Source of the DNA: Franzmannia pantelleriensis
GTDB lineage: Bacteria; Pseudomonadota; Gammaproteobacteria; Pseudomonadales; Halomonadaceae
Direction: 5' to 3'
Length of the DNA: 64,000 nt
NCBI RefSeq assembly: GCF_900102875.1
Contig: NZ_FNGH01000012.1
Span: 96,403 to 160,402, forward strand
Of this stretch, positions 44,512 through 45,858 are shown one piece after another. A program made the position numbers and the translations under genes. Numbering within the stretch: the stretch's first letter is position 1; every line of letters starts with the position of its first letter. The notes beneath the pieces are model-generated. The model was not told the DNA's origin. It worked only from the letters and a program-made list of their open reading frames with translations, and ran no database searches.

Positions 44512-44587
44512 AGTAGATGCTTGATATGGCTGAGCTTTTGCTTGGTGCCGGCACCAGGAGTCGAACCCGGGACCTACTGATTGCAAG
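44512..44587. repeat. Left direct repeat (attachment-site copy, truncated tRNA-Thr)
   Basis: 71 identical bases, one mismatch (G for A at 44583), then CAAG, compared with 45783-45858. Positions 44543-44587 are the 3' part of tRNA-Thr from the CCA end to the anticodon; the 5' half is missing. The anticodon base is changed (GCA for ACA on the plus strand), so this copy cannot be a working tRNA. Confidence 0.9.
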
Positions 44588-44707
44588 ACCCTTTCTCGCC
44601 GGCTTTCAGCGGCTCACGCCGCCATAAATCAATCATTTACGAAAATCTTTCCGTTCGCTGGAGCCCCTTCTGGCATGTCGCTGTCGACACCCCTTCGATA
44701 CTTGTAG

Positions 44708-44727
44708 CTATTACCATATAGGTATAG
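44708..44727 (+). promoter_or_regulatory. Inverted repeat in the higBA promoter
   Basis: CTATTACC-ATATA-GGTATAG is an imperfect inverted repeat (one bulged T) just upstream of the toxin ATG. A possible -35 (TTGTAG) and -10 (TATAGA, 15-nt spacing) overlap it. It is a candidate operator for autorepression by the antitoxin. Confidence 0.4.
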
Positions 44728-44736
44728 ACTCGTACT

Positions 44737-45102
44737 ATGAATTCGACGCCCCTCCAGCCCGTGCACTGGGTTGCCAGCAGCAAGAAAGATCTACTGGCCA
44801 TGCCCGATGACGTCCAAGACGTCTTTGGCTTCGCCCTCCACCTCGCCCAGGCTGGCACCAAGCACCCGCAGGCAAAGCCGCTCAAGGGGTTCGGATCTGC
44901 TGGCGTCCTCGAGGTCGTCGAAGACCACCACCGTGACACCTATCGCGCTGTCTATACGGTCAAGCTGGGCGATGCGGTCTACGTCCTTCACTGCTTCCAA
45001 AAGAAGTCCTCCAGGGGCATCGCCACACCCAAGCCAGACCTGGACAAGATCCGCGACCGACTCAAGCTGGCCGAACAGCACGCCAAGGGAGAAACATCAT
45101 GA
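44737..45102 (+). CDS. HigB/Gp49-like toxin (RelE superfamily)
   Basis: 121-residue protein of the phage-derived Gp49-like/HigB family (PF05973 type). Recognisable features are VQDVFGFALHLAQAGTKHPQ, the core KGFGSAGVLEVVEDHHRDTY with RAVYTVKLGDAVYVLHCFQK and KSSRGIATPKPDLDKIRDRL near the end. Such proteins are ribosome-dependent mRNA endonucleases. It precedes and overlaps the antitoxin gene by 4 nt, the toxin-first order of HigBA. It is carried by the tRNA-Thr element, where it may have served to stabilise it. Confidence 0.87.
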   Translation: MNSTPLQPVHWVASSKKDLLAMPDDVQDVFGFALHLAQAGTKHPQAKPLKGFGSAGVLEVVEDHHRDTYRAVYTVKLGDAVYVLHCFQKKSSRGIATPKPDLDKIRDRLKLAEQHAKGETS

Positions 45103-45416
45103 CCATCCAAACCGGCTCCACCAACGTCTATGCCGACCTGGGCATGCCAGATGCCGAGGAAATGCTGATCAAGGCCCAGTTGGCCGCCAAGATCGCCGAG
45201 ATCATCAAGCACCGCCGCCTCACGCAGACCAAAGCGGCAGAGCTAATGGGCATTCCCCAGCCCAAGGTTTCTGCCCTCCTACGCGGGCAGTTCCGCGGCA
45301 TCAGCGAAGCCAAGATGCTCGAGGCCATCGCTCGACTGGGTAGAGACGTCAAAATCGTCATCGGCCCCTCACGGCGACGTTCCTCCCCAGGACACGTCGA
45401 ACTGGAAATGGCTTGA
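45099..45416 (+). CDS. HigA-like XRE-family antitoxin
   Basis: 105 residues with a Cro/CI-type helix-turn-helix: LTQTKAAELMGIPQPKVSAL followed by LRGQFRGISEAKMLEAIARL (HTH_37/XRE group). It should neutralise the adjacent toxin and repress the operon. Overlap with the toxin gene is ATGA. The basic C-terminal tail (GPSRRRSSPG) may assist DNA binding. Confidence 0.88.
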   Translation: MTIQTGSTNVYADLGMPDAEEMLIKAQLAAKIAEIIKHRRLTQTKAAELMGIPQPKVSALLRGQFRGISEAKMLEAIARLGRDVKIVIGPSRRRSSPGHVELEMA

Positions 45417-45428
45417 GGTGCGAGATTC

Positions 45429-45653
45429 ATGAACACACATCCAGATGAACCTGATCCCGACGACGCGCCCGAACTCGACCAGAAATGGTTCGAGCATGCC
45501 CACCAGTACCACGGTGATACCCTGGTCAAGCGTGGTCGTGGTTGCCCACCTCTTGAGCCCAAAGAATGCAAAGGCTCGTCAAGATCTGCTACTACCAGGA
45601 CGTGATCGAAGCTTTTTGCAGTACTGGCCCCGGCTGGCAGACCAGAATCAACC
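45429..45653 (+). pseudogene. Frameshifted BrnA-like antitoxin remnant
   Basis: The frame from 45429 reads a typical N-terminal part (DDAPELDQKWFEHAHQYHGD then TLVKRGRGCPPLEPKE) and then loses the pattern, ending at 45605. The matching C-terminal part (YQDVIEAFCSTGPGWQTRIN then HAL) continues in another frame from about 45566. Together they make an interrupted BrnA/antitoxin-like protein of the 'RGRPPLE...DVIEAFRATGPGWQTRIN' type. No BrnT toxin is present. The fragment runs directly into the integrase remnant. Confidence 0.7.
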
Positions 45654-45728
45654 ATGCGCTATCCTCACCTTACCCCGAATCATCTGGAGGAAGCCGTCAA
45701 GCTGAACCCCGTTGCGAAGCTCGGTTGA
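45654..45728 (+). pseudogene. C-terminal remnant of a tyrosine recombinase (integrase)
   Basis: About 24 codons read MRYPHLTPNHLEEAVKLNPV then AKLG and a stop. This matches the end of phage-type integrases (T-M-R-Y-x-H-L-x-P-E-H-L-x-x-A-V), including the catalytic Tyr region. It lies 55 bp from the right repeat, the normal place for an integrase gene next to its attachment site. All upstream domains are missing, so it is non-functional. Confidence 0.7.
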
Positions 45729-45747
45729 CACTTTGTAGACACATACG

Positions 45748-45775
45748 AAAAAACCGCCTCAAATTAGGGCGGTTT
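45748..45775 (-). terminator. Terminator of the Phe-Gln-Thr tRNA operon
   Basis: On the minus strand AAACCGCC-CTAATTTGA-GGCGGTTT followed by T-run (TTTTTTCG): a clear Rho-independent terminator 39 nt after the tRNA-Thr CCA end. It appears to have been brought in by the integrated element. Confidence 0.85.
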
Positions 45776-45782
45776 AATATAT

Positions 45783-45858
45783 AGTAGATGCTTGATATGG
45801 CTGAGCTTTTGCTTGGTGCCGGCACCAGGAGTCGAACCCGGGACCTACTGATTACAAG
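45783..45858. repeat. Right direct repeat (attachment-site copy, intact tRNA-Thr)
   Basis: Partner of 44512-44587. This copy lies within the complete tRNA-Thr gene (its 3' 45 nt) plus 31 nt downstream. The only internal mismatch falls in the anticodon triplet. Confidence 0.9.

Follow-up and report, generated by a model that had tools for sequence, protein, structure and literature searches.

A probable inovirus prophage remnant retaining an intact HigB-HigA pair at the tRNA-Thr gene of Franzmannia pantelleriensis

In Franzmannia pantelleriensis the 3′ half of a tRNA-Thr gene occurs twice within a short distance, which raises the question of what inserted here and how much of it is left. We analyzed a stretch of 64,000 nucleotides (“the window”; contig NZ_FNGH01000012.1, positions 96,403 to 160,402, genome G000 in our set) and compared it with four congeners (G001, G002, G003, and G004) and with 275 genomes of the family Halomonadaceae. 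An earlier note on this DNA had described a 76-bp near-perfect direct repeat containing the tRNA-Thr 3′ half, and this was borne out: the two copies (Table 1) are identical at 75 of 76 positions with a spacing of 1271 bp. The sole mismatch lies in the anticodon loop, and a repeat search tool stretches the repeat to 86 nt at 94% identity. Each copy comprises 45 nt of tRNA-Thr, from the anticodon loop to the CCA, plus 31 nt beyond. ARAGORN called a single intact tRNA-Thr(TGT) on one side and no tRNA at the copy on the other, as the note had also claimed. Integration into a tRNA gene is indicated by this layout, in which one repeated 3′ end restores the tRNA and the other is headless. In ten intact elements found at tRNA-Thr (below) the shared block likewise begins at the anticodon loop, within one base, and we infer that this is the expected crossover point of a tyrosine integrase. 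The tRNA-Thr/Gln/Phe cluster is conserved in relatives, and the left flank gene, ectoine-hydroxylase-like (EctD-like), is also present in G001, G003, and G004.

Table 1. Features in and around the tRNA-Thr insertion (positions are those of the window).
Feature	Position	Strand	Basis
Left chromosomal flank gene, phytanoyl-CoA dioxygenase family	43359..44309	-	PF05721, E 1.9e-32
Terminator-like hairpin of headless copy, GTCGCC type, probably native	44477..44501	-	Sequence
Headless attachment copy, tRNA-Thr 3′ half from anticodon loop + 31 nt	44512..44587	-	Sequence, repeat search
Putative left arm-type site TGTCGACAC, 94 nt inside headless copy	44682..44690	+	Offset shared with intact elements
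Palindrome TTACCATATAGGTATA upstream of higB, putative HigA operator	44711..44726	.	Similar inverted repeats in relatives
HigB-like toxin gene, 121 aa, intact	44737..45102	+	PF05973, E 1.2e-23
HigA-like antitoxin gene, 105 aa, intact	45099..45416	+	PF13744, E 7.9e-29
BrnA antitoxin remnant, frameshifted, 3′ end cut off	45429..45661	+	PF14384, E 1e-8
Putative deletion junction, 8-bp microhomology ATGCGCTA	45654..45661	+	Word in BrnA and int; deletion inferred
Last 25 codons (stop included) of tyrosine integrase gene	45654..45728	+	Alignment to intact int genes
Two arm-like repeats GTTGACAC, TGTAGACAC	45724..45742	+	Comparison with intact elements
Element-borne terminator-like hairpin between int tail and tRNA	45748..45775	-	Shared with G002, G004, and G003 headless copy
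Second attachment copy, 3′ half of intact tRNA-Thr + 31 nt	45783..45858	-	Sequence, repeat search
Intact tRNA-Thr(TGT)	45814..45889	-	tRNA call

Between the copies, higB comes first and overlaps higA by 4 nt, and the encoded proteins, the second an HTH antitoxin, match PF05973 and PF13744. By gene order, overlap, and family match the two genes qualify as a predicted HigB-HigA type II toxin-antitoxin pair. NCBIfam provided no family for HigB, for HigA, or for the 430-aa protein c1 upstream of Int in the elements described below, PADLOC none for HigB or HigA, and a PDB search returned two entries for HigA and none for HigB. An inverted repeat similar to TTACCATATAGGTATA precedes higB in several relatives, and the palindrome may function as a HigA operator. 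The BrnA remnant consists of two pieces, 85% and 75% identical to the intact BrnA of G004. The earlier note had seen only a toxin-antitoxin pair and fragments here; Pfam recovers HigB, HigA, and the frameshifted BrnA, while the integrase tail had been overlooked. This tail, all that is left of the integrase gene in the window, translates to MRYPHLTPNHLEEAVKLNPVAKLG plus stop (24 residues). At the DNA level, homology to intact integrase genes begins at 45651 and continues across the two arm-like repeats into the terminator, and over tail, repeats, and terminator the identity is 77% to G130, 76% to G285, 75% to G207, and 73% to G022. The tail is nearest to integrases at tRNA-Thr (e.g., APDHLEEAVKLNP) and more distant from the Modicisalibacter tRNA-Leu type (SPDHLADAIKYAP). 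G130, which gives the best match, is a relic too, and nothing else in it matched the inovirus queries.

To place the tail, we searched the 275 family genomes with the 45 nt of the tRNA 3′ half, allowing up to 3 mismatches. Matches were present in 255 genomes, and by a hand count of the table 69 have at least two copies, a figure that counts copies without sorting them singly into classes. In four of the 69 (G176, G177, G180, and G206) the copies are merely 118–532 bp apart, and those of G177 and G206 keep the stem in both copies and look like tandem tRNA genes. Ten intact elements of 10.9–13.2 kb, defined by location at tRNA-Thr, bounds on one contig, and an Int at least 63% identical to that of G022, carry the integrase at the tRNA end. 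All ten match the Int, c1, c3, and repressor queries and nine match Zot/pI, pIV secretin, and major coat protein (G063 lacks all three); two of the ten supplied the query proteins. In the G207 element, PHROGs and Pfam identify protein I of M13, protein IV of M13, a major coat protein (phrog_1646, PF19199), and Phage_integrase. Its pI protein shares 59.6% identity with the pI of Escherichia phage If1. Given these Zot/pI, pIV, and coat families, we consider the tRNA-Thr elements to be inovirus prophages. Their int gene faces the tRNA across a terminator and accessory genes lie inside the other copy, for example a DndB-like gene in G063 and DUF2726 matches in G046, G196, and G285. The HigB search gave no match in any of the ten. 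The accessory slot of the G188 tRNA-Thr inovirus (L193:1417-2883) holds a defence gene of the RT-TIR_XII type.

Thus, the larger elements at this tRNA that the earlier note had suggested looking for exist, and so does an empty-type site: G012, from another genus, has a single tRNA-Thr copy followed by the GTCGCC-type terminator, 227 bp from the EctD-side flank, and a repeat beside it leaves a past insertion possible. With ten occupied relatives and an empty-type one, the proposal of a decayed integrative element in tRNA-Thr is supported.

Some tRNA-Thr loci in the family have further copies or layers. In G196 (L194:1163-1291, also L251:7163-7291) an intact inovirus has another, older integrase tail immediately beyond its headless copy, and two insertions therefore appear stacked at this tRNA. 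In G022 (C46; L034, L035, and L207) three att copies stand in a row at tRNA-Thr, with a truncated integrase (173 residues matched, 83% identical) beside the middle copy, followed by an intact inovirus. Two tRNA-Thr copies of G155 (C12; L200) are 10.9 kb apart, both with an intact stem and the same terminator type, and inovirus queries gave no match between them. In G016 (C1:1168027-1267440) the distance between two copies is 99 kb, and the distant one has an integrase match next to it.

The insert resembles the intact inoviruses at the same site in its integrase end, repeats, and attachment layout. The left arm-like site occurs at the same offset, +94, in six of the ten intact elements and at 82 in G285 (at this stringency none was found in G188, G196, and G224), and the right arm-like repeat is present in seven of the ten. 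No match to inovirus pI (Zot), coat, or secretin genes was detected in the window, and we therefore file the insert as an inovirus relic and not as an inovirus. With a probability of roughly 0.8, we interpret the 1.27-kb insert as the remnant of an inovirus prophage in which the attachment copies, the int tail, and an intact HigBA were left after deletion. At the anticodon loop, Int would have recombined the phage with the host DNA, producing the layout now seen: the tRNA would have taken the phage’s 3′ half, trailer, and terminator, leaving the native 3′ half and terminator on the far side. In complete relatives an accessory slot lies inside that other copy, as comparison shows, and HigBA sits there in an inovirus of Modicisalibacter tunisiensis. 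The word ATGCGCTA occurs in BrnA of G003 and in int of G130, G207, and G285; hence a single deletion over this 8-bp microhomology would explain the brnA-int fusion, with loss of a core of roughly 10 kb. HigBA may have persisted because such a pair can lose its toxin first, but not its antitoxin.

The two hairpins, which were read off the sequence and not called by a terminator program, bear on this exchange. The earlier note had stated that each repeat copy has its own, different terminator, which holds for these hairpins, and had suggested a tRNA end plus terminator captured from an earlier host. In G002 and G004, tRNA-Thr is followed by the 45748-type terminator and the repeats next to it, while the G003 headless copy has the terminator alone; this sharing indicates that the tRNA-side terminator travels with the element. 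Intact tRNA-Thr elements have a terminator of their own at the equivalent position. The GTCGCC type also follows tRNA-Thr in G012, G015, G001, G155, and G181, and the one at the window’s headless copy is thus probably native; against this, the type is found on both copies in G181 and G155 and on the tRNA side in G001. The tRNA-side terminator therefore stands as element-borne, while an origin of tRNA end and terminator in an earlier host is not supported, the trailer being like that of the present genus. Within 11 genomes, the two copies have trailers that agree at a mean of 0.956 (lowest 0.74, G207), compared to 0.77 between species of the same genus (22 comparisons) and 0.40 between genera (88 comparisons). 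Trailer identity thus follows the host genus and dates nothing, and we rejected it as a mark of recent insertion.

Could a different kind of element have left the same scar? A tailed phage, island, or conjugative element with the same class of Int, carrying HigBA by chance, could have decayed here. This Int class is common to tailed phages (the records nearest the G207 Int are mostly tailed phages, at 46–49% identity), and Int alone is therefore no proof of an inovirus. Some larger elements at this tRNA also leave room for such a source, namely an element of about 25.7–25.8 kb in G001 that none of the HigBA, BrnTA, or inovirus queries matched and the 99-kb spacing in G016. Moreover, HigBA is a widespread module whose tie to inoviruses is seen for halomonads only. 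In a set of 80 named HigB loci, most of them from outside the family, one (L084, M. tunisiensis) had matches to inovirus structural genes and two (L085 and L126) had an Int match without them; among 22 viral loci with HigB relatives, an IMG/VR inovirus with HigBA (L252) alone had an inovirus match and the other 21 had none, by queries that are halomonad proteins and may miss distant inoviruses. However, nine of the ten inspected tRNA-Thr elements with this Int are inoviruses by their structural genes, the arm-like site sits at the inovirus offset, HigBA occupies the same slot of an inovirus, and an inovirus-type repressor is present at the same locus in G003. We therefore consider an origin from another kind of element unlikely.

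Close relatives of HigB are often located near the same or another tRNA gene. At E 1e-25, homologues were found at 16 places in 15 of the 275 family genomes; leaving out G019 and G143, which are only 57% identical, close relatives occupy 14 places in 13 genomes. Ten of these places lie at most 1.1 kb from a tRNA-Thr or tRNA-Leu gene or headless copy: tRNA-Thr in G000, G175, and G251 (C62), and tRNA-Leu(CAA) in G251 (C43), G173, G163, G287, G221, G279, and G252. No tRNA copy was found at the other four (G023, G009, G144, and G155). M. tunisiensis (G173) carries a complete 11.79-kb inovirus in tRNA-Leu, with HigBA the first genes inside the headless copy. In Modicisalibacter coralii (G163) a relic with 1385 bp between the copies consists of headless copy, HigBA, a C-terminal piece of Int split over two frames, repeats, and tRNA-Leu. 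A unit of 1944 bp with HigBA and a DUF2726 gene occurs in the MAG Halomonas sp. 54_146 (G251), whose second HigBA lies 114 bp from a headless tRNA-Thr copy, with a repeat and terminator between. In G175 a partial headless copy is 2218 bp from tRNA-Thr, and the locus holds a broken HigB, an intact HigA, and a piece of c1 with 98% identity to G022 c1. G221 has repressor, c3, and coat matches and ends at the contig end; in G279 a newer inovirus is present and HigBA is located beyond its headless copy; and no headless copy was found in G287 and G252. A further relic at tRNA-Thr, in G181, has no HigB match, 4.87 kb between the copies, and a repressor 46% identical. At L042 (G023, Halomonas sp. NO4), arm-like repeats GTCGACACAATGTCGATAC lie 70 nt upstream of HigB, where no tRNA copy was found, and are possibly another inovirus end.

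The recurrence of small att-HigBA-att units with arm-like repeats in three or more genera (1271 bp in G000, 1385 bp in M. coralii, and 1944 bp in Halomonas sp. 54_146) would also be expected if units of 1.3–2 kb were inovirus satellites, mobilised in trans and mobile themselves, and not debris. Their interiors differ, however (BrnA with an int tail; a DUF2726 end with an int fragment; a DUF2726 gene without int match), so that each looks like its own deletion. HigA and the broken BrnA have also been resident in the genus (below), and a helper is hard to find: in G000 there was no match to Zot or, at E 1e-60, to Int, and within the genus a Zot match was seen only in G002, at another place (one of five genomes). 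Active satellites are thus very improbable here. Local duplication of the tRNA end without any integrative element, as close copies with intact stems in G177 and G206 might suggest, is practically negligible: one of the copies here lacks everything before the anticodon loop, the two have different terminators, and next to the tRNA come repeats and the end of an integrase gene.

For the inovirus relic, the congeners provide a view of its age. The G003 locus reads BrnT-BrnA, intact HigA, broken BrnA, and an intact gene for a 94-aa repressor (73% identity to the G207 repressor, E 1.6e-43), followed by the terminator and headless copy, and a newer integrase element lies beyond. In G004, BrnT-BrnA and intact HigA are followed by the repeats and terminator at the tRNA. 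In G002 the repeats and terminator are again found at the tRNA, and the 20 kb analysed gave no match to any query. The layout thus differs in each of the four congeners. The HigB search found no match in any of them, and none has inovirus structural genes at this locus; the repressor of G003 is a probable leftover inovirus gene, with no counterpart in G001, G002, or G004. An intact BrnT-BrnA lies upstream of HigA in the HigB-less G003 and G004 (L033:11154-11697, L031:7962-8505). In G002 (C17; L038, approximately 1540-1942) a tRNA-Met follows tRNA-Thr, and after it come several sequences like tRNA-Met 3′ ends, each with its own hairpin and T-run, perhaps other serial insertion scars.

Synonymous divergence of HigA from the window is 0.17 (G003) and 0.35 (G004), with a wide error over 105 codons. 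For the flanks, it is 0.57 and 0.55 for the EctD-like gene (G003 and G004) and, in G004, 0.41 for an FAH hydrolase and 0.57 for a MutY-like gene; FAH versus G003 was left out for a stop inside the match, and MutY versus G003 as a 50-codon chance match. The earlier note would have doubted a decayed element if divergence were no different from neighbours and the 1.27-kb arrangement were fixed in all relatives. HigA divergence is indeed not above that of the neighbours, while the arrangement is not fixed in the congeners. Since HigA divergence does not exceed the flanks, the element has probably been present in the genus for a long time, and its 1.27-kb form is probably one of several decay states. 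A recent arrival in this genome alone was rejected, being opposed by HigA and the broken BrnA at the locus in G003 and HigA in G004. The G004 DNA between HigA and tRNA-Thr was also considered as the parent and rejected; it contains, by eye, an IS66-type transposase-like ORF and fragments, with no inovirus match.

The HigA frame is intact at all 14 close loci and that of HigB at 12 (broken in G175 and G155), and G003 and G004 have an intact HigA without a HigB match. Between G003 and G004, HigA shows 18 synonymous and 5 nonsynonymous codon changes (p 1.2e-7, against a neutral expectation of 75% with amino acid change). No HigB without HigA occurred among the 14 close loci; the search by HigB could find such cases, and it under-counts lone HigA genes. 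An intact HigA everywhere and a HigB lost in some loci fit a toxin-first order of loss. As the relics were sampled through HigB, the apparent retention of HigBA over other genes is biased by sampling. We predict that the pair survives longer than the virus, since a cell that lost the antitoxin while it still had the toxin would be poisoned. That a lone HigA is kept as protection against the HigB of incoming inoviruses is a guess. We also think it quite unlikely that att-arm-HigBA-arm-att units at tRNA-Thr and tRNA-Leu are a selected end state and not debris, namely minimal toxin-antitoxin satellites of filamentous phages that take up the tRNA sites of those phages, are movable by the integrase of a helper phage, and have a HigA that would neutralise the HigB of an incoming inovirus.

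Among the closest known systems are the Pf filamentous prophages of Pseudomonas aeruginosa, including Pf4 with PfiAT (PMC13048266). Pf prophages have five integration sites and a common parDE operon; like the window’s element they are found in tRNA genes via a site-matched XerC-type integrase, with parDE as a common accessory, whereas the sites given are tRNA Gly, Met, and Sec and tmRNA, with att fragments of 27–46 bp versus 76 nt here (PMC7549136). The insert differs from them further in being a relic with a HigBA pair. Fifteen sets of putative toxin-antitoxin pairs are reported for 181 inovirus genomes (PMC6813254). The intact Halomonadaceae tRNA-Thr inoviruses (G207, L197) share the tRNA, crossover, related integrase end, repeats, and terminator with the window, but are complete 11-kb prophages with other accessory genes and no HigB match. 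The M. tunisiensis tRNA-Leu inovirus (L219) is alike in having HigBA as the first genes inside the headless copy, and unlike in being complete. The M. coralii relic (L085) is alike in packing headless copy, HigBA, Int end, arm-like repeats, and intact tRNA into 1385 bp. Both differ from the insert in site, tRNA-Leu(CAA), in Int subfamily, and in having DUF2726 (in M. coralii its end) in place of BrnA. CIMEs are att-flanked, integrase-less elements derived from conjugative elements, and their mobilisation has been demonstrated. As in CIMEs, both attachment copies are kept and the recombinase gene is lost; unlike them, the source here would be an inovirus.

Our literature search found no paper on halomonad inovirus relics, which does not imply absence from print. 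Toxin-antitoxin cargo of inoviruses is already known; what is of interest here is that reduction to an att-HigBA-att kernel has occurred repeatedly. Toxin-antitoxin pairs are often said to resist loss, and to our knowledge graded natural series of their retention are few. Here, related prophages at two tRNA genes are worn to different degrees, and toxin-first loss can be tested. The findings also suggest that inoviruses bring their own tRNA trailer and terminator, such that a past insertion remains readable as a layer at the tRNA gene, and that surveys starting from the pI protein, as in PMC6813254, will overlook such relics. Overall, the insert, read as an inovirus relic, is of a known kind, and the parallel cases in halomonads make retention driven by the toxin-antitoxin pair testable.
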